Source: a virus | Virus record (IMG/VR): IMGVR_UViG_3300042519_001519 | Coordinates: 1 to 64,000 of that record | Length of the DNA: 64,000 nucleotides | Reading direction: 5' to 3' (one strand) | Shown: positions 5,701 to 58,566 of the stretch, piece by piece | Layout of the letters: each line of letters opens with the position of its first letter | Position numbering within the stretch: the stretch's first letter is position 1 | Notes under the pieces: model-generated | Databases searched by the model: none | Told to the model about the DNA's origin: nothing | The model's input: the letters and a program-made list of their open reading frames with translations, nothing else | Translations under genes and position numbers: made by a program

Positions 5701-5708
5701 TATTTATA
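5701..5708 (+). promoter_or_regulatory. TATTTATA motif, possible late promoter of the tail sheath gene
   Basis: TATTTATA lies 33 nt before the sheath start and is followed by ATAAATTAAAAC. The same octamer precedes the tube, tape measure and other tail or envelope genes at similar distances. It is the reverse complement of the T4 late promoter TATAAATA; function not proven. Confidence 0.35.
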
Positions 5709-5733: not shown

Positions 5734-7857
5734 ATGGCAGAATCAATTATCTCTCCAGGAGTATTTACAAGAGAAAACGACCTTTCTTTTATACAACCAG
5801 CACCGGTAGCGGTAGGAGCAGCATTTATTGGACCAACAGTTAAAGGGCCTGTAGAAATGCCTACAGTAGTAACTTCTTATAATGATTATGTAAGAAAGTT
5901 CGGAGTAACTTTCGCCTCAGGTTCAGACAAATTCGAATATTTAACTTCATTAGCCGTTAAGAATTACTTCTCTCAAGGAGGTAATACAGCCTTAATCACT
6001 AGAGTCGTAGACCACATTGGCCCTGATTACTCAGAAGCACAAAGTACAAACATTGCTTCTAACAAAGTAACAGGAGTAAATAGAGCAACTGGATCAGGAA
6101 CTTTAACAAATGACATTGCAGTCAATCAAGAGTTTAAAGTACAGTACGGAACAGCAGCTTATAGATTTATTCCAGCAGGTACCCCACTTCCAGCAGATAG
6201 TGGAACAGGTAATGTATACTTCTTCCAATCAGGTTCAACAATTGCAGCAACAGTAACTAGCTTAGCAGCAGAAATTAACAATGCAATCCCAGGAGTATTA
6301 CAAGCAACAGGATCAGGAGCAAATTTACTTTTAAGCGGATCAGTAGCTGGTACTTTAAGAAATGGAATTACATTCTTTACAGGATCTATTACAGACTCTA
6401 CCGTATCATCAAGCTTATTCACAATAGCAGGAGGTACAGACGCAGCAGCTTCTTCTTTCCCATTCTCAATTAATACAATAGGTAAAGGAGCTATTTACAA
6501 CAACTCTCCTCTAGCAACAGATGCAGGAGCTCAAAACTCTGACGGATCTTTAGTATCAGGTTCAGAAGATAACTTAAGATGGGAAATCACAAATGTAAAT
6601 AACTCTAGAGGTACTTTTACATTATCAATAAGAAGAGGAGACGATAGTACAAATACTAAAGTAATCTTAGAAACGTTTAACAACCTTTCATTAGATCCAG
6701 CTTCAGATGATTATATCGAGAAAAGAATCGGTAGTCAATATACAACAATTGGTACAGACGGAAGTTCAACATTTTTAAGACTAGTAGGAGATTATCCAAA
6801 TAGATCAAACTTTATTAGAGTAAGTGCAGTAAATTTACCTACAATTAACTACCTAGGAAACGACGGAGTATCAGTTAATGCAGATGCAGCAGGACTTTCT
6901 TACTCAGCATCTTTACCGCAAGCAGTTTCTGGAGCATTTCATAGTGCAGGAGGTACAATTATAGCAGGAGCTAACTTCTTTAAAAACATAGACGCTCAAA
7001 CACAGGGATTAATAGCAGGAGATTATACAGATGCAATTGCATTATTAGAGAATAGAGATGATTATCAATTCAATGTAATAACAGCACCAGGAGTAACTAC
7101 AGCAGATCACTCAACAGTAACAGACGCACTTATCTCTTTAGCAGAAAATAGAGGAGATTGTATTGCAGTAGTAGACTTAGTAGGATATGAATCTACACTT
7201 TCTCAAGTAACAGATGAAGCAGCAGTATTAAATAGTTCTTACGCAGCATCTTACTGGCCTTGGTTACAAACTAAATCAGCTACAGGTAAGAATGAATGGA
7301 TACCAGCTTCAGTTGTAATACCAGGAGTTTATACATTCACAGATGCAGCTTCAGCACCATGGTTTGCACCAGCAGGACTTGTAAGAGGAGGTATTCCAGG
7401 AGTAATTCAAGCACAAAGAAGATTAACAAAAGGAGAAAGAGATACTTTATACTCAGGAAAAGTAAATCCAATTGCTTCTTTCCCAGGAACAGGTATATCA
7501 GTATTCGGACAAAAAACATTACAAACAAAAGCTTCAGCTTTAGATAGAGTAAACGTTAGACGTTTGTTAATAGAACTTAAGAAGTTCATTGGTGACCAAG
7601 CTAAAAACTTAGTATTCGAACAAAATACTATTGCAACAAGAAATAAATTCTTAGCGACGGTTAATCCTTACTTAGAATCAGTAGTACAAAGACAAGGTCT
7701 TTATGCATACAGAGTAGTAATGGACGAATCTAACAACTCAGCAGATGTAGTTGATAGAAATCAATTAGTAGGACAAATCTACATTCAACCAGCTAAAACA
7801 ATTGAATTCGTAGTATTAGACTTCACAATTGAACCAACAGGAGCAACGTTTGTATAA
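5734..7857 (+). CDS. Contractile tail sheath protein (T4 gp18-like)
   Basis: A 707-aa sheath subunit that polymerises round the tail tube and contracts at infection. The N-terminus SIISPGVFTRENDLSF followed by GAAFIGPTVKGP is the classic sheath start, and the C-terminal part (LIELKKFIGDQAKNLVFEQN, then a stretch ending in VLDFTIEPTGATFV) has the conserved sheath core. The middle (about 100-450) is a large, variable Ser/Thr/Gly-rich insertion. It is followed 45 nt later by the tube gene, the normal sheath-tube order of contractile tails. A TATTTATA motif 33 nt upstream may be its late promoter. Confidence 0.93.
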   Translation: MAESIISPGVFTRENDLSFIQPAPVAVGAAFIGPTVKGPVEMPTVVTSYNDYVRKFGVTFASGSDKFEYLTSLAVKNYFSQGGNTALITRVVDHIGPDYSEAQSTNIASNKVTGVNRATGSGTLTNDIAVNQEFKVQYGTAAYRFIPAGTPLPADSGTGNVYFFQSGSTIAATVTSLAAEINNAIPGVLQATGSGANLLLSGSVAGTLRNGITFFTGSITDSTVSSSLFTIAGGTDAAASSFPFSINTIGKGAIYNNSPLATDAGAQNSDGSLVSGSEDNLRWEITNVNNSRGTFTLSIRRGDDSTNTKVILETFNNLSLDPASDDYIEKRIGSQYTTIGTDGSSTFLRLVGDYPNRSNFIRVSAVNLPTINYLGNDGVSVNADAAGLSYSASLPQAVSGAFHSAGGTIIAGANFFKNIDAQTQGLIAGDYTDAIALLENRDDYQFNVITAPGVTTADHSTVTDALISLAENRGDCIAVVDLVGYESTLSQVTDEAAVLNSSYAASYWPWLQTKSATGKNEWIPASVVIPGVYTFTDAASAPWFAPAGLVRGGIPGVIQAQRRLTKGERDTLYSGKVNPIASFPGTGISVFGQKTLQTKASALDRVNVRRLLIELKKFIGDQAKNLVFEQNTIATRNKFLATVNPYLESVVQRQGLYAYRVVMDESNNSADVVDRNQLVGQIYIQPAKTIEFVVLDFTIEPTGATFV

Positions 7858-12579: not shown

Positions 12580-12804
12580 ATGGGACTATTAGACTTATTA
12601 CCATCGTCAAACTTAGGATTACAGGGATCTACACCAGCAACAATTGCAAGTGCTAATCCAAATTCAACACTACACAATCAATCATCAATCAATAACACAC
12701 CAGCGATTGATCAATCTCCTTCTGCTTTAGACTTAGACGGACAAATACCAGTAGTGTCTCCATCAGGACAAGGACTTCCTTACATGAGTAACCTACCAGG
12801 ATAA
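12580..12804 (+). CDS. Short Asn/Ser/Pro-rich tail protein
   Basis: A 74-aa protein of low complexity: Asn, Ser, Pro, Thr and Gln dominate, with no hydrophobic core, so it is probably disordered. It opens MGLLDLLPSSNLGLQGSTP and ends in GQGLPYMSNLPG. It is first after a TATTTATA motif and only 7 nt before the baseplate gene at 12812, so co-expression is likely. No family recognised; perhaps a small structural adaptor. Confidence 0.55.
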   Translation: MGLLDLLPSSNLGLQGSTPATIASANPNSTLHNQSSINNTPAIDQSPSALDLDGQIPVVSPSGQGLPYMSNLPG

Positions 12805-28536: not shown

Positions 28537-28544
28537 TATTTATA
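28537..28544 (+). promoter_or_regulatory. TATTTATA motif before the lectin-dockerin gene
   Basis: The octamer lies 12 nt before the ATG at 28549, at the border between the nucleotide-metabolism genes and the envelope block. Confidence 0.25.
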
Positions 28545-28548
28545 TGAA

Positions 28549-29547
28549 ATGAATATATTAGCCAAAATAGTAAAAATGTTATACCCTCTACTAATACTAG
28601 GGGGTATTTTATCTACGTACGGTCAAACCTTTACGCACTCTGGTTATATCTATGGATCAAACGCTACAGGTATACAAGGAGTACAGGTGCAGTTATATAG
28701 TAGAACAACACCTACTTTAACAGGATTTACAAACCAGCAAAATTATAACGGACATTCCTATTATAGATCAACAAGTTCAATGACATGGACAGCTGCAAGA
28801 CAGGCTTGTGCTAATATGGGAGGATATTTAGTAACTGTAACTACAGCAGCTGAAAATAACTTTATATTTAACTTATGGTCTGATGGATGGATAGGATTAA
28901 CAGATGAAGTAGTAGAAGGCCAATGGAGATGGGTAACAGGAGAGCCGTACACTTGGGGAAACTGGAACTCAGGAGAACCTAATAATTCAAATAATGAAGA
29001 TTATACTCAATTTGTAGGAAACGGTAAATGGAATGATTTACCAAATACATCTTTACCGTATGTATTAGAATTTGACTATATAGTGACTTTTACACCCTGG
29101 ACTTTGGTAACAACAGCAACAACAGATGTAACAGGGAGATATGTATTTTCAACACCAACAAATCCTTCTGTAGAATATTACATAACTTTTACTCCTCCAA
29201 CCCTACCTACATTGCAAATAAGTGATGCACAGATTTCAAACACTGTAACTCTAGGATCACTGGCTTTAAAGAGTAGAGACTATTTTAGATTTGATGTTAA
29301 TAATGATGGTAGAGTAACAATATCAGATACTTATTCAATATTTGCTAGAAGAAACGGAATATTTACATCCTTTCCAGCATCCCCTCCAGACAGTAGAATA
29401 TTTACAACAACTCAATGGAGTACAATTAATGCAAGTACAACAAACCTGAAAGCAACATTTCCAGGGGTACAGACAATTACAATTAATACACCTGTATCGG
29501 GTGGAGTTTCTTCTTACTATATTACTAGACTAGGGTATAGCAACTAA
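28549..29547 (+). CDS. Secreted C-type lectin protein with dockerin-like C-terminus
   Basis: A 332-aa secreted protein. A signal peptide (about 1-25, ending LSTYGQ) is followed by the start of a carboxypeptidase-regulatory-like beta domain (HSGYIYGSNATGIQGVQVQL). This is interrupted by a C-type lectin domain (about 60-180: SMTWTAARQACANMGGYLVT, GWIGLTDE, WRWVTGEPYTWGNW, GKWNDLP) and then resumes (TTDVTGRYVFSTPT). The C-terminal ~90 residues begin FDVNNDGRVTISD, a dockerin-like Ca-binding loop, and are homologous to the C-terminus of the next protein. Likely role: a surface carbohydrate- or protein-binding component that docks on cohesin-like partners (inference). Confidence 0.75.
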   Translation: MNILAKIVKMLYPLLILGGILSTYGQTFTHSGYIYGSNATGIQGVQVQLYSRTTPTLTGFTNQQNYNGHSYYRSTSSMTWTAARQACANMGGYLVTVTTAAENNFIFNLWSDGWIGLTDEVVEGQWRWVTGEPYTWGNWNSGEPNNSNNEDYTQFVGNGKWNDLPNTSLPYVLEFDYIVTFTPWTLVTTATTDVTGRYVFSTPTNPSVEYYITFTPPTLPTLQISDAQISNTVTLGSLALKSRDYFRFDVNNDGRVTISDTYSIFARRNGIFTSFPASPPDSRIFTTTQWSTINASTTNLKATFPGVQTITINTPVSGGVSSYYITRLGYSN

Positions 29548-29556
29548 AATCAGTAC

Positions 29557-29564
29557 TATTTATA
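29557..29564 (+). promoter_or_regulatory. TATTTATA motif before the cohesin-like gene
   Basis: The octamer lies 69 nt before the ATG at 29626. The leader holds a hairpin GTGC-ATAA-GCAC (about 29577-29588). Confidence 0.25.
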
Positions 29565-29625
29565 AAAGGTATGAGAGTGCATAAGCACCCGGTTGTGAAA
29601 TAAAAATAACTTAAAAACAAAAGAA

Positions 29626-30717
29626 ATGAAAAAATTACTTTTAGTATTGAGTTTAGTTTTAGTATCATTAACAGGATTTGCACAAACTATCGCACCTGAT
29701 GCTACTAAGCCTTACTTAATATTTGACGCTAGTTACAACCTGGCACCACTTGGAGCAACACCTACAAACGTTGCAATTTATTATGATAATGCTGGTTCTA
29801 CAGCTATCAAAGCAGTACAGTACAGATTTTGGTACGACAAAAACGTATTTGCTTCTCCTACAGTGACTTACACTGGAACTGAAGCAAACAATTATTTCCA
29901 AACATTAGTAAATGCTACTGAAGGAAATGTAACAGTTACATGGGTTTACACAGGAGCAGATGCTGCTTTCAATATTGCTGACGGAGCAATGTTCAACGTA
30001 GCTTTACCATTTAAAGCAGGTTATACAAACGGTGCAGTAACAGCAATGGCGTTTACAGGAGCGACAGCTTACCCGGCTTACGGTACTCTAGCAAATGGAA
30101 CTGATACTACACTAGGATTACATAATTACGGAGGAGCGTTCACAGAACCAGTATTTAACTATGCTGCTACATTCTTAAATGATCCAACCAACCCAGCTTC
30201 AGACGTTCCAGTAATATTACAAAAATCTTCAAACGGAACAACTTGGGTAGATGTAATGACAGTTAATACAGCAACTACAACAGGAGTAGCATCATTCACA
30301 ACTAACTTAGATCAAAACTACTGGCAAATTAGAGTAAAAGTAGCACCAGGATTAACAGCACCAGGAGCATTAGCAGCAGCAGATGCAAATATGATTGCTC
30401 AAATCGCTACAGGAATACAAGCTCCAACTGGAACTCAATTCTATACTGCTAACCCTAACCAAGCAAATGGAATAACAATTTCAGATTCATATACAGTATT
30501 CTCTAGATTGGCTCAAGGTTTATCAGTTTACCCAAACACACCTGATTTACTATTCTTTACAGAAGCTCAATACAACACTATTGCAGCAGCTACAACAGAT
30601 CAGTCAGCAACAATTCCAGGGGTAGCAACATTCTTATCAGCTAACATTAACAATACAACAGCAGCCAATTACTATCTTCTAGTATTAGGAGACGCAAACG
30701 GAACAGGACGCAACTAA
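29626..30717 (+). CDS. Secreted cohesin-like protein with dockerin-like C-terminus
   Basis: A 363-aa protein. The clear signal peptide MKKLLLVLSLVLVSLTGFAQ is followed by a beta-sandwich of ~130 residues (YNLAPLGATPTNVAIYYDNA, then AVQYRFWYDKNVF), similar in style to cohesin domains. A second beta region follows. The C-terminal ~90 residues (NGITISDSYTVFSRLAQGLS to the end) align with the end of the preceding lectin protein (GRVTISDTYSIFARRNGIFT), including SDxYxxFxR and the later IPGV/FPGV stretch. It stops one base before the next ATG. It probably assembles with its neighbours outside the cell. Confidence 0.7.
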   Translation: MKKLLLVLSLVLVSLTGFAQTIAPDATKPYLIFDASYNLAPLGATPTNVAIYYDNAGSTAIKAVQYRFWYDKNVFASPTVTYTGTEANNYFQTLVNATEGNVTVTWVYTGADAAFNIADGAMFNVALPFKAGYTNGAVTAMAFTGATAYPAYGTLANGTDTTLGLHNYGGAFTEPVFNYAATFLNDPTNPASDVPVILQKSSNGTTWVDVMTVNTATTTGVASFTTNLDQNYWQIRVKVAPGLTAPGALAAADANMIAQIATGIQAPTGTQFYTANPNQANGITISDSYTVFSRLAQGLSVYPNTPDLLFFTEAQYNTIAAATTDQSATIPGVATFLSANINNTTAANYYLLVLGDANGTGRN

Positions 30718-30718
30718 T

Positions 30719-31450
30719 ATGCTACGCTATATAATCATAGCACTGTTATCAATAAATTCACTCTATTCCCAGGTACAATTTCAAGTGCCTGGGATTACAG
30801 TGTCTCCGTCTAATACCATAGATCTACCTGTAGCTATTCTAACAAATGGAAATGCAGTAGGGAGTTTAGAATTTGCTTTAAATTACGATCAAAGCATTTT
30901 ACAATTCTCAGAAATAATTTTATCTGAAAAAGCACAAACCTGGTTAACCTATACAATGGATACCGGAAGTGGAAAAGTAAGATGGGGAGGATATGATAGA
31001 ACACATGGACAGCATACTGTAACAGCTCCAACAGAATTATTCATATTAAAATTTACAGTACTTAATCCTAACTGGACTACAACTCCTATAACCGTAGGAA
31101 GAAAGACAGCTGGAAATGTACAAGGGTGGGATATCGCTGTAACTAATACAGATGGTTATATCAACTATAATAGGTATGCAGCTCCTTTAGATGAAGATGG
31201 AATTCACGGAAAAGTATATCCAGTACCTACAGATGGAATTATAACAATGGAGATGTCTTTACCAGTGAGTGGAGATTATGAAATTGCAGTTTACGACATG
31301 GGAGGAAATCAACTAAGTATAAAGAAAGAACGTTTTGCAAAAGGACCGAATACTACTTATGGAGATCTAACTGCTTACCCAAGTGGTAACTATTTATTAA
31401 ATATAAGAAGTAAGAACTTCGCAAAAACATTTAAAGTAATAAAAAAATAA
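30719..31450 (+). CDS. Secreted cohesin-domain protein with T9SS-type sorting domain
   Basis: A 243-aa protein. A signal peptide (MLRYIIIALLSINSLYSQ) is followed by a cohesin-like domain of ~140 residues: VSPSNTIDLPVAILTNGNAV, then GSLEFALNYDQSILQFSEI, the usual cohesin strand pattern. The C-terminal ~75 residues (KVYPVPTDGIITMEMSLP, GDYEIAVYDMGGNQL, AYPSGNYLLNIRSKNFAKTF, KVIKK) have the features of a type A T9SS C-terminal sorting domain. That domain would send it through the host type IX system to the cell surface. The dockerin-like ends of the two upstream proteins are natural partner candidates. Confidence 0.78.
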   Translation: MLRYIIIALLSINSLYSQVQFQVPGITVSPSNTIDLPVAILTNGNAVGSLEFALNYDQSILQFSEIILSEKAQTWLTYTMDTGSGKVRWGGYDRTHGQHTVTAPTELFILKFTVLNPNWTTTPITVGRKTAGNVQGWDIAVTNTDGYINYNRYAAPLDEDGIHGKVYPVPTDGIITMEMSLPVSGDYEIAVYDMGGNQLSIKKERFAKGPNTTYGDLTAYPSGNYLLNIRSKNFAKTFKVIKK

Positions 31451-31453
31451 GCT

Positions 31454-31777
31454 ATGTCAGAAGAAACAAACAACGAAGGTGGATTATCAGGATTGAAAAA
31501 AACCTTAATCGGAACTCTAACTACAGTAATCGGTGGAGCAGGTATTTGGGTATCAACAACTTTATTCGGAGGTCACTCAGAAGATAAAGAAGAAGTGAAA
31601 ACAGAACAAGTAGCACCAGCACCAGCAGCAGCACCTGTCATTAATGTTAATTTGGAGAACAACAACACCAACCAACAAAAACAACAATCAAACAACTCTA
31701 ATTCAGCTAAAGCCGCTCCTGCTCCAGTTCAACAAGCAGCACCAGCACCAGCTCCTGCTCAAAAAGAATCTTGGTAA
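31454..31777 (+). CDS. Single-span membrane protein with Ala/Pro/Gln/Asn-rich tail
   Basis: A 107-aa protein. A short cytoplasmic N-terminus (MSEETNNEGG) leads to one hydrophobic Gly/Thr-rich segment (LIGTLTTVIGGAGIWVST, about 18-35). The remaining ~70 residues are low complexity: Ala-Pro repeats, then Asn/Gln-rich VNLENNNTNQQKQQSNN, then more Ala-Pro. It starts 3 nt after the T9SS gene. It could be a holin-type or scaffold protein, but no family is recognisable. Confidence 0.55.
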   Translation: MSEETNNEGGLSGLKKTLIGTLTTVIGGAGIWVSTTLFGGHSEDKEEVKTEQVAPAPAAAPVINVNLENNNTNQQKQQSNNSNSAKAAPAPVQQAAPAPAPAQKESW

Positions 31778-32052: not shown

Positions 32053-33036
32053 ATGGCAGACGAAACAATCGGAGTTGTAGTAGGTAACGAACAAGCAGGT
32101 GCATCAGCAGAAGCACACGCGGGAACAGAAGTAACAGATACATCAGTATCAGCAAATGCCGGAGTATCAGCCGAGGCTCATGCCAATGTAGAAAATACAA
32201 CCGAAGTTGTAGAAGGAGTAGATATTAATTCAGAAGCACACGCTACAGCAGAAGCATCAGTAGAAGCACAAGCACAAGCAGGATGGGATGGACATGACGC
32301 TTCAGCATCAGCTGGAGTAACAGCTGAAGTAAAAGTAGAGGTAGAAGCTTCAACAGAAGTAGAAACTGATTACGGAACAGCAGGAGTACATGCCGGAGCA
32401 TATGCAGAAGCACATGCAGGAGTAGAAGCAAATGCTTCAATAGGAGAACATGGAGCTGAAGCTAACGCAGGAGCATCAGTGGGAACATCAGTAGGAGTAG
32501 AAGCAGGAGTAACAGCACAATCAGGTGATGTATCAGCAGAAGCAAATGCAGGAGTATCTGTAGGGGTACAAGCAGGAGCAGAAGTTGGAGGTGGAGCTAC
32601 TTACGATGATGGAGCTATCACATTAGGAGTTGAAGGTGAATTAGCACTTTTAGTTGGTGTAGATGTAGACGCATCAGTAACTATAGATGTATCGGATGAA
32701 GTAGAAGCAGCTAAAGCAGCGGCAGAAGAAGCGGCTAAAGCAGCAGCAGATTTATTAGCATCTCAAGAAGCAGCTGAAGCACAACGTGTAGCAGAAGAAA
32801 CAGCAGCAGAAACAAAACGTGTAGCAGATGAAGCAGCTAGAGTATTAGCAGAACAAGCTGCAGCAACTGAGAGAAGATTAGCTGAAGAAGCAGCAGCAGC
32901 TCAAAGAGAATTAGAAAGACAAGCAAGAGAAGCTCAAGACGTACTTGATAGAAAAGCAAGAGAAGCTCAAGATGCACTTAATAATGCAGGTAAAGCAATA
33001 GAAAAAAGTAAAGCTAATCCAAGAAATTGGTTCTAA
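32053..33036 (+). CDS. Ala/Gly/Val-rich repeat protein with C-terminal coiled coil
   Basis: A 327-aa protein. Residues ~10-215 are built of short degenerate repeats such as AGASAEAHAG, AGVSAEAHAN and AEANAGVSVG, alternating small and acidic residues with recurring His. Residues ~215-320 are an Ala/Glu/Arg-rich coiled coil (EEAAKAAADLLASQEAAEAQ). There is no signal peptide. Such repeats suggest an extended beta structure or a disordered fibre, held together by the coiled coil. Function unknown; it could be a virion fibre or a cytoplasmic scaffold. It overlaps the next ATG by one base. Confidence 0.6.
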   Translation: MADETIGVVVGNEQAGASAEAHAGTEVTDTSVSANAGVSAEAHANVENTTEVVEGVDINSEAHATAEASVEAQAQAGWDGHDASASAGVTAEVKVEVEASTEVETDYGTAGVHAGAYAEAHAGVEANASIGEHGAEANAGASVGTSVGVEAGVTAQSGDVSAEANAGVSVGVQAGAEVGGGATYDDGAITLGVEGELALLVGVDVDASVTIDVSDEVEAAKAAAEEAAKAAADLLASQEAAEAQRVAEETAAETKRVADEAARVLAEQAAATERRLAEEAAAAQRELERQAREAQDVLDRKAREAQDALNNAGKAIEKSKANPRNWF

Positions 33037-33749
33037 TGGTAAGAAAATTAATATTTATACTATTTTTATTAGCAAGCATAATAGGCTCTGCTCAAAAAGT
33101 AGGGTCTGTTAAAACTGAAGTCTACCAAGCCGATTTTGAAAAGAAGCAATCATTAGAGGTTGTATCTGATTATAGCGGAGACATAGTCATCCCTATTCAG
33201 ATCCTTAAGATTGGTATCAATGAGGAATTATATGAAATGTACCCTGAACTAAAAGATAAAAGAGTTGGTTTAGGAGTATCAAATATAGTATTAGAGTATT
33301 TAGAGTCCACAAATAGATTTAAGTTTACAGAAGACAGAGAAGAAATAAAACAAAAAATGATTGCTCAACACATAGCTTCAGCTAAGGGTATATCAGAAAA
33401 TAAAATAGAAGTTAAAGGAAATGTTATATTAGCAAAGTATTTTGTTTATATAGAAGTCTATGATTTCAGCATAGGTGAGGATGAAGAAGTTTCAACCTCT
33501 GGAGCTGAGATAAGACAAAAAACAATATTAGGGTTACAAGTAAGATTTGTGGATGCACAGAGCGGTGAAATAATTACTGGATCAGGATCCGGTGAAGCAG
33601 TTACAGTGAAGAAGGCAAGCTTATTAGATGGACTCGACGATATTAAATTTAATCAATCAACAATCGGAGTATCTACCAAAAAGTCATTAGAAACTGCCTC
33701 TTCAAGAGTAGTATCAAAAATGATTAAAAAGGGGATATTTCCGAACTAA
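33036..33749 (+). CDS. CsgG-like outer-membrane secretion protein
   Basis: A 237-aa protein. The start ATG at 33036 overlaps the previous stop (TAATG) and gives a clean signal peptide, MVRKLIFILFLLASIIGSAQ. The mature part has the CsgG/curli-transport pattern: VGLGVSNIVLEYLESTNRFK, EEIKQKMIAQHIASAKG, VILAKYFVYIEVYDF, LGLQVRFVDAQSGEIITGSG and SRVVSKMIKKG. CsgG forms a nonameric outer-membrane export channel for curli subunits. Here the usual lipobox Cys is not obvious. It lies between the repeat protein and a barrel protein, so it may export or anchor phage-encoded envelope proteins (inference). Confidence 0.65.
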   Translation: MVRKLIFILFLLASIIGSAQKVGSVKTEVYQADFEKKQSLEVVSDYSGDIVIPIQILKIGINEELYEMYPELKDKRVGLGVSNIVLEYLESTNRFKFTEDREEIKQKMIAQHIASAKGISENKIEVKGNVILAKYFVYIEVYDFSIGEDEEVSTSGAEIRQKTILGLQVRFVDAQSGEIITGSGSGEAVTVKKASLLDGLDDIKFNQSTIGVSTKKSLETASSRVVSKMIKKGIFPN

Positions 33750-35179
33750 TGAAAAAATGGATTTCTTTATTTATATTCTTTGCTTTCCTACAGGCTTCAG
33801 CCCAGTACAGCTACACCTATACAGATCCGTGTACACTACAATCCAAGAGCGTATTCGTACCTGCTGGGGGAAATGTAATGGTAAACTACTTTGATAACCA
33901 TAATACATTTTCTGCAAATGACTTCTCCTCAGGAGTCTTCGATAACTGGATAACTCTAGTATCTCAACAAAATTCAAACTCACCTTGTGAATCAGTAACT
34001 ACAGCTATTGTAAATAGTATAACCAATGTAACAGTTGCTAACACATTAACTGTTGTTACAAATGTAATATCAGTAACAAACGTAGCTCAATCCATAGCGA
34101 CCATAGGAGGATCTATGGGAAGCTCTATGACAGCTACAGCCGGAGGCGTAACAAACTCTTCACAAAGTGAAGGAGGTAGTACTAACCAAAACTCAAAAGA
34201 TGAAAAAAAATCCGATTCAAATACCAATTCAGGAACAAATACAGGAACTACTGGAACAAGCCCAACAGGTAACCAAAGTCAAGGAGGCCAAACCACTTCT
34301 AACCCTTCTGGAGGAACACCTACAGGATCTTCAACAGGAACACCTCAACAAGGAGGAGAAACTACAAGTCCAAATCAACCAGCTTCAACAGGAGGTTCAT
34401 CGTCTGAGTCGTCTGTAGAAGGTTCAAGCGGTGGAGGAAGTAATTTAGCTAACTCTTTATCCAACTCTGTAGATGGAGGATCATCTGACGGAGGAAGTTC
34501 AGGCGGTGGAGGAACATCAGGCGGTGGTAAAAAATCTAATAATGCAGCTAAAAGTGTAGGAAGTTTAATTGCCTCAGGAGATATAGTAGCTATTGCCAAT
34601 ACTGATCAAACTCAGAACTTTAGATTTGTAGGAAGTATAACTCATGCCAATACTAGAGGAACTAGAATCAAAGGAGTATTATTCAATTATACCTCAGGAG
34701 TTAATAACTTAAATGTTACTTTTTATAAATCCTGGATTAATAAATCTAAAAAATTAAACACAGTAGGAGCTCAATCCATTATGATGGATTTTGATAAAAA
34801 TTTCTTTAGTACAACGACAGTATTAGAATCATATAAAGTAAGTAACAAACTAACAGGAATGTTTGGTGTCAATTTTACAGCAGGTAAAATGGGAGAAAGA
34901 GCTTTATTGAATCTATCAGCTGTAGGTGGAGCACATAGTAGTTTTAAACTAAGCGATAGAGTTAGTACTAGCGTACTTGTATTAGGAGTATACTCTCCAT
35001 TCACTCAGTTCTACGAAGGTAAATGGTGGGATGCTGGCATAATAGTAGTACCATTTAATTCATGGGATTTAAAAATAACTAAGACATTTAAGTTTAATGT
35101 AAGTTTTACAGGAGTATACGAAGCAGGTAAAGAATTTTTAAATTACCAAATATTAACAGGTGGTAAATTGACATTTTAA
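33749..35179 (+). CDS. Outer-membrane-barrel-like protein with Ser/Gly/Thr linker
   Basis: A 476-aa protein. The signal peptide MKKWISLFIFFAFLQASAQ is followed by an N-terminal domain with two Cys (CTLQSK, SPCESVTT). Residues ~140-270 are a low-complexity Ser/Gly/Thr/Asn linker. The last ~210 residues are a series of amphipathic beta strands (FRFVGSITHANTRGTR, LNVTFYKSWINKSKKL, LKITKTFKFNVSFTGVYEAG) ending in GGKLTF; a terminal Phe is typical of outer-membrane barrels. It starts on the last base of the CsgG-like gene. Probably inserted in the host outer membrane. Confidence 0.65.
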   Translation: MKKWISLFIFFAFLQASAQYSYTYTDPCTLQSKSVFVPAGGNVMVNYFDNHNTFSANDFSSGVFDNWITLVSQQNSNSPCESVTTAIVNSITNVTVANTLTVVTNVISVTNVAQSIATIGGSMGSSMTATAGGVTNSSQSEGGSTNQNSKDEKKSDSNTNSGTNTGTTGTSPTGNQSQGGQTTSNPSGGTPTGSSTGTPQQGGETTSPNQPASTGGSSSESSVEGSSGGGSNLANSLSNSVDGGSSDGGSSGGGGTSGGGKKSNNAAKSVGSLIASGDIVAIANTDQTQNFRFVGSITHANTRGTRIKGVLFNYTSGVNNLNVTFYKSWINKSKKLNTVGAQSIMMDFDKNFFSTTTVLESYKVSNKLTGMFGVNFTAGKMGERALLNLSAVGGAHSSFKLSDRVSTSVLVLGVYSPFTQFYEGKWWDAGIIVVPFNSWDLKITKTFKFNVSFTGVYEAGKEFLNYQILTGGKLTF

Positions 35180-35264: not shown

Positions 35265-35720
35265 ATGAAAAAATTATTTTTATTATTAGCATTAGTATTT
35301 TTAGTATCAGCTGATACAACTACTAAGGAATGTTATAAAGTAACAAAAGTGTCTTCACAAGTTGAAGCACCTGAAATGAAAAAAGAAAGAGTTGTATTCG
35401 GAATTAAACAAATGACAGAAGAAATTCTATCTGAAAAGCATGACATATGTGAAGATGGAACTCCAGTAGAAGTAGAAGTACTATCAGTTGAAGCACCTTC
35501 CACAAATACATCTTTAGGTCCATTCTCTAAAACTAAAAAAATTACTATTGTAAAATTAAGACTTATAATAGGAAAAGAGGAATACTGGGGTCAAGGAGAA
35601 GCAAACGTAACAGTTCAATCAACATTCTTAGATTTGAACGACGATAACTTACCATTTAACAAGACTGCATTCTCAGGAGCAGTTAAAAAAGCTTTAGTAG
35701 AAGCTGTTGGAGAAATGTAA
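35265..35720 (+). CDS. Periplasmic protein of unknown function
   Basis: A 151-aa protein with a signal peptide (MKKLFLLLALVFLVSADT). The mature part begins with two Cys-containing segments (KECYKVTKVS, KHDICEDGTP) and is otherwise beta-rich with a helical C-terminus (FSGAVKKALVEAVGEM). It could be a small partner of the CsgG-like or barrel proteins just upstream. No family recognised. It ends the envelope block; a promoter for the next gene lies in its last codons. Confidence 0.6.
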   Translation: MKKLFLLLALVFLVSADTTTKECYKVTKVSSQVEAPEMKKERVVFGIKQMTEEILSEKHDICEDGTPVEVEVLSVEAPSTNTSLGPFSKTKKITIVKLRLIIGKEEYWGQGEANVTVQSTFLDLNDDNLPFNKTAFSGAVKKALVEAVGEM

Positions 35721-54793: not shown

Positions 54794-56464
54794 ATGAATA
54801 ATAAATTTACATTCCACGTATTAGGACTTCCTCATACAATCACTAATAGAGAATTTGTAGCATGTGCTTATACACAAAAGGCTTGGAAATTCTGTAAGAT
54901 GATGGGGGAAAGAGGGCATACTATCTACCATTACGGACATGAGGAGAGCGACGCTCCATATGCGGAAAACGTAACAGTTATCACCAATAAGGTATGGAAA
55001 AAAGTATACGGTACTCATGACTATAAATCTAAATTCTTTAAATATAATGTAGAGGATGAAGCCTATCAAACCTTCTATAAAAATGCTATAAAGGAAATAG
55101 GAAAGAGAAAACAGAAGAATGATTTCATTTTACCATTCTGGGGGTCAGGAGTAAGGCCGGTATGTGACGGACATCCAGATTTAATAACTGTTGAACCAGG
55201 AATAGGCTATGCAGGAGGGCATTGGGCAAATTGGAAAGTATTTGAATCTTATGCAATCTACCATGCATACTACGGACTGATGGGAGTGAATTATTGCGAT
55301 ATGAAAAACTACGAAGTAGTAATTCCAAACTACTTCGACCTCTCTGATTTTGAATTTAGCGATAAAAAAGAAGATTACTTTCTTTATTTAGGAAGAGTCT
55401 TTGACGGAAAAGGAGTTAATATAGCAATCCAGGTTACTGAACACTTAGGGTATAAATTAAAGATAGCAGGACAGATTGACGCCGATGGACCTTATAAGGA
55501 TGGAAAGTTTCCTCCTCATGTAGAGTTTGTAGGGTATGCTGGAACCGAAAAGAGAAAAGAACTGATGAAGAGTGCAAAAGGATGCTTCCTACCTTCACAA
55601 TATGTTGAACCATTTGGAGGAGTTCAAATAGAAAATTTACTATCAGGAACACCAACAATTACCTCAGACTGGGGAGCCTTTGCAGAGAATAATATAAACG
55701 GAGTAACTGGTTACAGATGTAGAACGTTTGATGATTACTTGCAGGCAACTATAAAAATTAACAACGGAGAAATAGATTACAAGACTTGTAGAGAGTATGG
55801 AGAAAAGTTTTCATTAGAGAATGTAGCTCCTATGTACGAAAAATATTTTAAAGATATTTTAAATGTTTATGAAGGAGAAGGATGGTATCAAACAGATATT
55901 CCTAGAGGGAAGACTGATGCTTTCAATTATACAAATATGGAGGAAGAAGAAAAGCCATTTGCAGATAATCTAGCTAAGTGGATTAAAAAGTATTACAATC
56001 CTAAAAAAGTAGTCGATGTAGGTTGCGGGAGTGGGACTTATGTAAGGTCCTTAAGAAAAGAAAAAATTGATGCTATTGGGTACGATATTAACGATGTAGT
56101 AGAAGATCAGGACTTTCTCTTTAAAAAGAGTATCTTTGACCTAAACCATAAATCAGAACTAATTATCTGCCTGGAAGTAGCCGAGCACATAGAGACAGAA
56201 CACAACGACAGTATTGTTGAAAAGTTATACGAAAACCTTAAACCAGGAGGTACTTTAATCTTCACAGCAGCACATCCAGGACAGCAAGGAATAGGTCATA
56301 TAAACTGTCAAACAAAAGACTACTGGTGGGAGAAGTTTGCAGAAAAAGGATTAGTCCGAGATTTAAAAGCAGAGAAGGATTGGGAAGATTATTTTGATCA
56401 AGGAAGAGAGTACATGGGATGGTTCCGTATGAACAAGCTCTTTTTAACTAGAGTAGGATCATAA
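54794..56464 (+). CDS. Fusion of a GT-B glycosyltransferase and a SAM methyltransferase
   Basis: A 556-aa two-domain protein. Residues 1-370 look like a family-4-type glycosyltransferase: FLYLGRVFDGKGVNIAIQVT (start of the donor domain), HVEFVGYAGTEKRKELMKSA, then GCFLPSQYVEPFGGVQIENL (E(x7)E-like donor motif) and LSGTPTITSDWGAFAEN. Residues ~395-550 are a class I methyltransferase: KKVVDVGCGSGTYVRSLRKE (motif I), GYDINDV, LIICLEVAEHIE and ENLKPGGTLIFTAAHPG. It may build a methylated sugar on phage DNA bases, fibres or host glycan. The start codon coincides with the predicted transcription start. Confidence 0.8.
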   Translation: MNNKFTFHVLGLPHTITNREFVACAYTQKAWKFCKMMGERGHTIYHYGHEESDAPYAENVTVITNKVWKKVYGTHDYKSKFFKYNVEDEAYQTFYKNAIKEIGKRKQKNDFILPFWGSGVRPVCDGHPDLITVEPGIGYAGGHWANWKVFESYAIYHAYYGLMGVNYCDMKNYEVVIPNYFDLSDFEFSDKKEDYFLYLGRVFDGKGVNIAIQVTEHLGYKLKIAGQIDADGPYKDGKFPPHVEFVGYAGTEKRKELMKSAKGCFLPSQYVEPFGGVQIENLLSGTPTITSDWGAFAENNINGVTGYRCRTFDDYLQATIKINNGEIDYKTCREYGEKFSLENVAPMYEKYFKDILNVYEGEGWYQTDIPRGKTDAFNYTNMEEEEKPFADNLAKWIKKYYNPKKVVDVGCGSGTYVRSLRKEKIDAIGYDINDVVEDQDFLFKKSIFDLNHKSELIICLEVAEHIETEHNDSIVEKLYENLKPGGTLIFTAAHPGQQGIGHINCQTKDYWWEKFAEKGLVRDLKAEKDWEDYFDQGREYMGWFRMNKLFLTRVGS

Positions 56465-57792: not shown

Positions 57793-58566
57793 ATGAAAAG
57801 AATAGAAGATTATAACAAAACACTTCCCATTGTAGAGCTTTATACAGCAGTACAATCAGAAGGAAGTAGAGCAGGTTATCCAACCGTAGTAATCAGAACA
57901 ACAGGCTGTACTCACAGATGTTGGTTTGGTGATGGTGGATGGTGCGATTCTTGGTACACAAGTATACATCCTGAAAAAGGACATATCAGTTTTCAAGATA
58001 TTATTAACATGTATGATGCCAATCCCCACATCACAGAGATGATGCTAACAGGAGGATCACCAACAATGCATCCAGCATTAGTAAACGAATTAACACATTT
58101 TGCACATGAAAGAAATATTTTCATTACGATTGAGACCGAAGGAAGTCATTTTCTTGAGACAGATTACCCAATTAATCTATTATCAATCTCCCCTAAGTTC
58201 AGTAATTCTGTCCCTAAGGTTGGCATTGCAACACCTCAAGGAGACATTACAGATGAGAAAATGATTAAACAGCATAACAAGCTAAGATTAAACTACGATG
58301 CAATATCCAAATCAATCTCTTATCATTCAGACTACCATTTAAAACCGGTATGGGATGGAGAGGATCAAGAAGCATTAAAAGAGATTATGAATTGTATTAA
58401 AATGCTAGACATACCAGAAGATAAAGTATGGTTCATGCCAGCAGGAGATTCAAGAGAAGCTTTATTCAAATCATATCCAAAAATGTTTGATTGGGTTAGA
58501 GATAACGGTTATAGATTGACCTGGAGACCTCACATCATTGCATTTGAAGACCAAAGAGAAGTGTAA
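57793..58566 (+). CDS. queE: 7-carboxy-7-deazaguanine synthase (QueE, radical SAM)
   Basis: A 257-aa enzyme of the third step (CPH4 to CDG). Start: LPIVELYTAVQSEGSRAGYP and VVIRTTGCTHRCWFGDGGWC. The 4Fe-4S Cys are spaced CX3CX7C, not the standard CX3CX2C, a QueE-type variation. MMLTGGSPTMHP is the GGE-like SAM motif, with Ser in place of Glu. IETEGSHFL, LLSISPKFSNSVP and KPVWDGED follow QueE strands, and the end WRPHIIAF fits the family. Product used by QueC. Confidence 0.85.
   Translation: MKRIEDYNKTLPIVELYTAVQSEGSRAGYPTVVIRTTGCTHRCWFGDGGWCDSWYTSIHPEKGHISFQDIINMYDANPHITEMMLTGGSPTMHPALVNELTHFAHERNIFITIETEGSHFLETDYPINLLSISPKFSNSVPKVGIATPQGDITDEKMIKQHNKLRLNYDAISKSISYHSDYHLKPVWDGEDQEALKEIMNCIKMLDIPEDKVWFMPAGDSREALFKSYPKMFDWVRDNGYRLTWRPHIIAFEDQREV

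Follow-up and report, generated by a model that had tools for sequence, protein, structure and literature searches.

A phage gene cassette of lectin, cohesin and dockerin-like domains with a type IX secretion sorting domain, and its possible role on the surface of infected cells

Why would a phage encode three adjacent, apparently secreted proteins assembled from lectin, cohesin and dockerin-like parts? The question is raised by a 64,000-nucleotide stretch of viral DNA (hereafter the window), which covers positions 1 to 64,000 of the 76,046-base virus record IMGVR_UViG_3300042519_001519 and carries a phage tail sheath gene at 5734. A preliminary description had pointed out three neighbouring open reading frames (ORFs 1 to 3) at 28549-29547, 29626-30717 and 30719-31450. 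They exist as described, and by eye each begins like a signal peptide, ending ...YGQ, ...FAQ and ...YSQ, respectively. We refer to the products as tip, adaptor and anchor. Flavobacterium phage immuto (NC_055915), which infects Flavobacterium sp. LMO8, has close relatives of all three in the same arrangement; its annotation calls them, in turn, a lectin C-type domain protein, a hypothetical protein and a cohesin domain protein. The analysis confirmed that this cassette is real, conserved and widespread. The best reading, and one that we consider rather probable, is that it specifies a phage-encoded cohesin-dockerin chain displaying a binding tip on infected cells via the host type IX secretion system (T9SS). 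Sequence profiles, cohesin folds, a natural gene fusion and genetic linkage are the main support for such a chain.

The anchor bears both domains that had been attributed to it, a cohesin and a T9SS sorting domain. ORF 3 matches Cohesin (PF00963, expectation value (E) 6e-8), Por_Secre_tail (PF18962, 1.4e-9) and the NCBIfam model TIGR04183 (4.7e-10), in each case above the cut-off. Whole-record searches of 12 large phage records (E <=0.01) found exactly one place with a T9SS tail in every one of them, again above the cut-off. Residues K239 and K242 are invariant in 25 of 25 anchors and recall, by description rather than by alignment, the near-invariant lysine that the relevant part of PMC10994853 places near the C-terminus of T9SS C-terminal domains (CTDs). 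When Protein Data Bank (PDB) sequences were searched with profile A3, the leading entries were T9SS-tail-like (5jvk at 1.1e-4, matching the tail of the anchor), with cohesins no better than E 0.17-0.23; profiles A2 and A4 gave no matches to these sequences. One further locus (L018, 7951-8676) has an anchor ORF with an in-frame stop after residue 136.

The adaptor had been called cohesin-like. A Pfam scan of ORF 2 itself returned no significant family; among its homologues, 7 of 34 match Cohesin at E <=0.1 (best 7.4e-5). A structure predicted for ORF 2 alone from 34 sequences has a pLDDT (predicted local distance difference test) of 57 overall, with mostly 60-90 in the N-terminal domain. In the Foldseek listing for this model, 49 of the 50 matches are cohesin, cohesin-complex or cellulosome-scaffoldin entries, the remaining one (2o4e) being titled only as the interaction module of a GH84 enzyme. 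The N-terminal domain is thus, in the model, a cohesin fold, and the proposed assignment holds. Because the model is weak and its C-terminus unreadable, a natural fusion was modelled instead.

In a second group of phages, represented by 90 unique ORFs, adaptor and anchor are joined in a single chain of about 630 amino acids (aa) with the order Coh2-X-Doc2-Coh3-CTD, where Coh2 and Doc2 denote the cohesin and dockerin-like domains of the adaptor, X an X-like module and Coh3 the cohesin of the anchor. A purpose-built CTD hidden Markov model (HMM) matches 88 of the 90. Among 25 fusions scanned, all match Por_Secre_tail and 23 match PF00963 at E <=0.1 (best 5e-13). The AlphaFold2 model of one fusion (L169:5219-7102; 66 sequences) has a mean pLDDT of 87.7 and displays two clear predicted cohesin folds, at residues 24-180 (VIA-align Z 14.7, root-mean-square deviation (rmsd) 2.6, 142 aligned) and 399-527 (Z 12.4 to 2xdh, rmsd 2.6, 120 aligned), with 10-19% identity to solved structures in the cohesin alignments. 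The VIA-align list is a re-look at Foldseek matches and says nothing of families missing from it; the Foldseek listing for the fusion also holds long immunoglobulin (Ig)-like proteins among the cohesins. With regard to a possible dockerin fold, the model has helices at 256-266 and 290-300. Among viral structures, the fusion best matches a phage protein whose title reads 'Secretion system C-terminal sorting domain', with 42% identity over the full length; the next two, unnamed, have the same lengths as immuto gp014 and gp015. The fusion provides a hint that, in the window, Doc2 of the adaptor may pair with Coh3 of the anchor. A fused cassette is also carried by a viral contig of jumbo size (L124, 308,574 bases).

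The preliminary description had further proposed that tip and adaptor end in homologous, dockerin-like domains (Doc1 and Doc2). Their homology is borne out by phmmer, applied to the identical L001 copy (8e-12 and 4e-11), and by comparison of the two domain-set profiles (match probability 98.9). As to their kinship with dockerins, the Doc2 profile built from fusions gave nine matches to PDB sequences. The top three are cellulosome or amylosome proteins, led by the ScaB dockerin 4uyp_B (E 0.0018, both repeats aligned) and followed by 4uyq (0.077) and R. bromii Amy16 (0.09, in a stretch that we read as its dockerin); the other six comprise one dockerin (5m2s, 0.7) and five unrelated proteins (0.57-2). 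With the Doc1 profile, A8, 22 entries were matched. We read about 14 of these as dockerins, the best E being 0.0061 and each stretch weak; also present are an endonuclease/exonuclease/phosphatase protein (0.018) and both EF-hand and unrelated proteins. The second repeat of Doc1 in the window contains a canonical calcium loop, DVNNDGRVTISD. With Dockerin_1 (PF00404), the best E-values were 0.0045 among 29 tips and 0.0012 among 25 fusions, and the cut-off was reached in no protein scanned singly. Given the missed cut-off on one side and the profile matches to solved dockerins on the other, both domains are best called dockerin-like, a description with fair support from these comparisons, and not formal members of the Pfam family.

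ORF 1 is, as had been suggested, a C-type lectin protein (Lectin_C, PF00059, E 2.6e-17, above the Pfam cut-off). Tips vary widely from phage to phage. Since BLAST clustering of their N-terminal parts merged everything, 116 unique full-length tips were classed by similarity to seeds, most of them named by Pfam, some below the cut-off: 46 resemble C-type lectin, 7 C-type lectin plus LamG, 25 GEVED, 18 PA14 or PA14-like and 1 legume lectin seeds, 97 in all, and the remaining 19 resemble the L008 seed, which has no recognised module. The L054 and L135 seeds are not above the Pfam cut-off; L054 was called PA14-like by eye, and three tips depend on it alone. The sample is biased by best-N lists and by shared ancestry. 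No catalytic domain scored above the cut-off among 20 tips scanned singly. Three loci (L010, L012 and L015) illustrate the contrast between tip and scaffold, protein 2 being 89-91% identical to that of the window, tip N-termini 18-26% and Doc1 39-53%. Every exchanged tip in tip alignment A1 keeps a Doc1 homologue at its C-terminus. It thus seems that phages sharing a scaffold exchange tips in their entirety, each with a tail that is homologous yet diverged, probably by recombination. Locus L008 has two tip genes.

Numerous further viral contigs carry the cassette, so that its occurrence in the window is not due to chance. Scans of viral contigs returned 28 loci for ORF 3, 44 for ORF 2, 54 with an ORF-2 profile and 48 with an ORF-3 profile, in addition to the best 80 of 125 related stretches for the tip profile and the best 80 of 280 for the fusion profile; there is overlap between these sets, some contigs appearing under more than one locus. 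For linkage counts, identical scaffold ORFs were collapsed, near-identical ones were kept, and a locus was counted as testable if it had enough flanking sequence. Adaptors of the split type number 38, some of them truncated where the contig stops, and the anchor adjoins in 36 of 36 testable cases. Of the testable loci, 26 of 27 split ones and all 55 fused ones have a tip gene nearby, the single miss being a truncated scaffold at a contig end (L076). In the 12 large phage records, tip-profile matches fall in the cassette only. As a crude look at signal peptides, a simple regular expression was applied with no control set; 114 of the 127 scaffold ORFs had both of the features it describes.

These data support a phage origin of the cassette, in phages whose hosts are seemingly Bacteroidota. 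A limited scan of bacterial genome contigs with two short peptide patterns yielded one relative among 30 stretches, a scope that does not establish absence from bacteria. This relative (L069) lies on contig JAAEPJ010000011.1 of a metagenome-assembled genome and, as it combines ribonucleotide reductase (RNR) genes with the cassette in phage order, probably represents phage DNA that was sorted into a bacterial bin. Three genomes of the same phylum, the one containing L069 included, gave no other full-length match, and no relative was found on plasmids.

Table 1. Features of the cassette and its surroundings (window coordinates).
Feature	Position	Strand	Remarks
TATTTAT, 12 nucleotides (nt) upstream of tip gene	28537..28543	+	possible phage regulatory motif
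Tip protein (332 aa) with signal-peptide-like start, C-type lectin domain, X-like module (weakly matching SdrD_B) and Doc1	28549..29547	+	
C-type lectin domain with EPN and WND motifs	28777..29052	+	PF00059 2.6e-17; motifs from tip alignment
Doc1 dockerin-like domain	29215..29544	+	PF00404 E 0.075; profile A8 matches mostly dockerins in PDB
12-residue loop DVNNDGRVTISD in Doc1	29293-29328	+	
TATTTAT, 69 nt upstream of adaptor gene, then short conserved stem	29557..29563	+	
Adaptor protein, 363 aa: Coh2 ~29686-30141, X-like module ~30142-30348, Doc2 ~30349-30714	29626..30717	+	
Anchor protein, 243 aa: Coh3 ~30773-31099, T9SS type A sorting domain 31214-31447	30719..31450	+	
Small protein with hydrophobic stretch, adjoins anchor in immuto-like loci	31454..31777	+	similar-looking gene in L155 by eye
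CsgG-like (weak) exported protein	33036..33749	+	homologue near every testable scaffold
Putative outer-membrane protein conserved with cassette; beta-barrel by eye	33749..35179	+	
Small protein, signal-peptide-like start (by eye), conserved with cassette	35265..35720	+	

Several neighbouring genes travel with the cassette. In immuto-like loci its downstream side holds the small protein, the CsgG-like protein, the putative outer-membrane protein and the second small protein. The small protein that follows the anchor was not detected in the more distant split loci shown. A homologue of the CsgG-like protein is encoded within 3.5 kilobases (kb) downstream of the scaffold in all testable loci (32 of 32 among the split, 76 of 76 among the fused). 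Its assignment to CsgG is weak: PF03783 matched 1 of 18 sequences at E 0.01 and 1 of 7 at 0.045, with AIM24 (0.0054) among other families also matching, and hhalign to E. coli CsgG gave a probability of 4.2, versus 0.15 and 0.16 for two control proteins. Between the two genes, positions 32053-33036 encode a repetitive protein rich in Ala, Glu and Val, present in L001-L004, L017 (part), L019 and L025 and undetected in many other cassettes. Farther away, one ORF (54794-56464) has matches to a glycosyltransferase (phrog_3408, 8.5e-172) and also to methyltransferase families, and is followed at 57793 by a QueE-like gene.

The TATTTAT sequence upstream of the tip and adaptor genes occupies the same places in immuto. 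In the window it occurs just before gene starts at 5701, 7874, 8463, 9484, 25323, 28537 and 29557, the tail sheath gene included. Its total count is not above chance (29 versus 38.6 expected), and what stands out is solely where it is placed: the first 36 kb contain 17 copies on the plus strand, 10 of them between genes, in a region that is 4.2% intergenic by our own gene list (with the gene at 12588 estimated). Another 7-mer of the same composition, TATATTT, has an intergenic share as high (2 of 3). We regard TATTTAT as a candidate phage regulatory motif, and its presence before the tail sheath gene hints at late expression of the cassette. In immuto-like loci a stem, GTGC...GCAC (variants GTGT...ACAC; window 29564-29600), lies upstream of the adaptor; the more distant split group showed no such stem.

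Taken together, the analysis supports a set of matched cohesin and dockerin-like parts, a T9SS-tagged anchor and a lectin tip. The docking idea gains strength from two things that the preliminary description could not know, the natural fusions of proteins 2 and 3 and the swapping of tips. In the display chain that we favour, all three proteins would reach the periplasm by their signal peptides, and the anchor, by virtue of its type A sorting domain, would be passed across the outer membrane by the host T9SS. Substrates of type A are, in the pertinent part of PMC10994853, carried by PorV and then released or linked to lipopolysaccharide. Doc2 of the adaptor would bind Coh3 of the anchor, since both reside in one chain in related phages, and by elimination Doc1 of the tip would bind Coh2. 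Each chain would end up with one lectin-type tip, different in phages sharing the scaffold, that most likely binds bacterial glycans. The untagged tip and adaptor may pass the outer membrane carried with the anchor, by way of the CsgG-like protein, or through release at lysis. As for the benefit, a guess to which we give somewhat less than an even chance is that infected cells are held to neighbours or to a glycan matrix late in infection, ahead of receptor masking against superinfection.

A number of observations weigh against the display chain. Neither protein 1 nor protein 2 has a T9SS tail. The search with dockerin PF00404, which had been put forward as a check, gave E 0.075 in ORF 1, under the cut-off. 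The first dockerin repeat is degenerate and lacks a canonical calcium loop. The case for an internal duplication of the dockerin is unconvincing, as the repeat comparison is not clearly above shuffled controls: profile A7 gave a probability of 9.3, which 2 of 100 shuffled controls reached (maximum 35.4), and profile A8 one of 0.5, like its own controls. Doc1 of L010, L012 and L015 has diverged although the adaptor is about 90% identical, so that whole tips differ and tight co-conservation of Doc1 with Coh2 is not seen. Of the 116 tips, 19 match only the L008 seed, and GEVED is not, to our knowledge, a sugar binder. In the fusion model, the Coh-X-Doc structure of CipA (3kcp) aligns over residues 27-302 with Z 13.6, rmsd 9.7 and 235 aligned, no better than a cohesin alone, which leaves the X-Doc likeness suggestive only. 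The fusion tail matches the PorU C-terminus (Z 9.8, rmsd 2.1, 83 aligned) in a tie with unrelated Ig-like rows (9.4); for the T9SS tail the sequence profile is firmer evidence than the fold match. Finally, in locus L155, of the fused group, endolysin and baseplate wedge genes follow the tip gene at about 1.1 and 7.8 kb.

The alternative that survives best retains the display complex and assigns it to receptor masking or superinfection exclusion, the lectin covering host surface glycans that serve competing or sibling phages as receptors. Tip diversity would suit receptor diversity, the immuto tip gene lies downstream of replication, RNR and nuclease genes, and superinfection exclusion or inter-strain competition has been proposed, in the section concerned, for T9SS cargo of Cryophage (PMC7468147). 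The motif shared with the tail sheath gene, with its hint of late expression, and the proximity of the L155 cassette to endolysin speak against masking. So does the distribution of Lectin_C, present in 7 of 12 large phage records and always within the tip ORF only, which provides no link to the phage's own tail. We therefore hold masking to be possible and clearly the minority option.

Cohesin and dockerin domains occur outside cellulosomes, and the cassette might consist of captured cellular surface proteins whose domains are relics without any cohesin-dockerin interaction. The degenerate first repeat of the dockerin and the divergence of Doc1 from phage to phage while the adaptor stays alike would fit such decay, but the parts stay linked in every testable locus, split or fused, except the truncated one, and the exchanged tips of alignment A1 all end in a Doc1 homologue; we find this explanation improbable. 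Ig-like domains are common on phages, so the proteins might instead be beta-sandwich decorations of the particle, in neck, tail or head fibres. The baseplate genes near the L155 cassette and the upstream motif common to the tail sheath gene are compatible with virion components; signal-peptide-like starts in all three proteins, a T9SS tail in each of the 12 records and specific cohesin matches that outrank generic Ig folds make them very unlikely. No better placed is an envelope or lysis complex in which the chain stays at the outer membrane with the CsgG-like protein and helps to open or permeabilise it, in line with the constant downstream CsgG-like gene (108 of 108 testable scaffolds) and with the gated-secretin or pinholin role proposed, in the part of PMC9004378 on this point, for CsgGF of phage Melnitz, since it leaves the exchanged lectin modules and the T9SS tail unexplained and leans on a weak CsgG assignment.

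The phage display chain most resembles the cellulosome scaffoldins (CipA, with its Coh-X-Doc order, and the ScaA/ScaB/ScaC chains of Acetivibrio). Common to both are the cohesin fold, the Coh-X-Doc order, the logic of an adaptor plus an anchoring scaffoldin, and a dockerin-like module on the cargo. They differ in that the cassette is phage-encoded, the window proteins have one cohesin each, the anchor carries a T9SS tail and the recognised cargo modules are lectin-like rather than enzymes.

The preliminary description knew of no phage system of this kind. Phage-encoded T9SS cargo had in fact been reported: Cryophage (Bellas et al. 2020) carries three T9SS-tagged cargo genes (endoglucanase, GH39 and PA14), for which competition or superinfection exclusion was suggested in the passages on these genes (PMC7468147). 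As judged from the same passages, likeness extends to phage-encoded type A sorting domains that vary between related phages, one of them with PA14; the words cohesin and dockerin have no occurrence in the main text of that report. In the portion of PMC6949934 on gut phages, T9SS sorting domains lie beside BACON repeats. Phage CsgG/CsgF clusters likewise feature a phage-encoded CsgG-type outer-membrane protein, to which the relation of the window protein is weak. For those of pelagimyophages, 'sibling capture' by aggregation was proposed (PMC7029224, relevant section), whereas with Melnitz no clumping was seen and a lysis role was favoured (PMC9004378, relevant section); the parts of these two reports on the clusters, which concern SAR11 and OM43 hosts, mention no cohesin-dockerin or T9SS components. 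Among the matches listed in searches of the open-licence literature, we found no description of a phage cohesin-dockerin assembly.

On a slight balance of probability, we extend the proposal to many Bacteroidota-type phages, which would assemble their own viral version of a cellulosome: a cohesin-dockerin scaffold, anchored by T9SS on the infected cell and plugged by recombination with different lectins, that makes the cell a programmable sticky or masked particle before lysis. If true, viruses would be making use of cohesin-dockerin assembly together with the host type IX system, rebuilding the infected-cell surface with modular lectins. The proposal offers a concrete hypothesis for the role of such phage surface cassettes, testable since the cultured phage immuto carries one, and it bears on the purpose of phage-encoded CsgG-type proteins.

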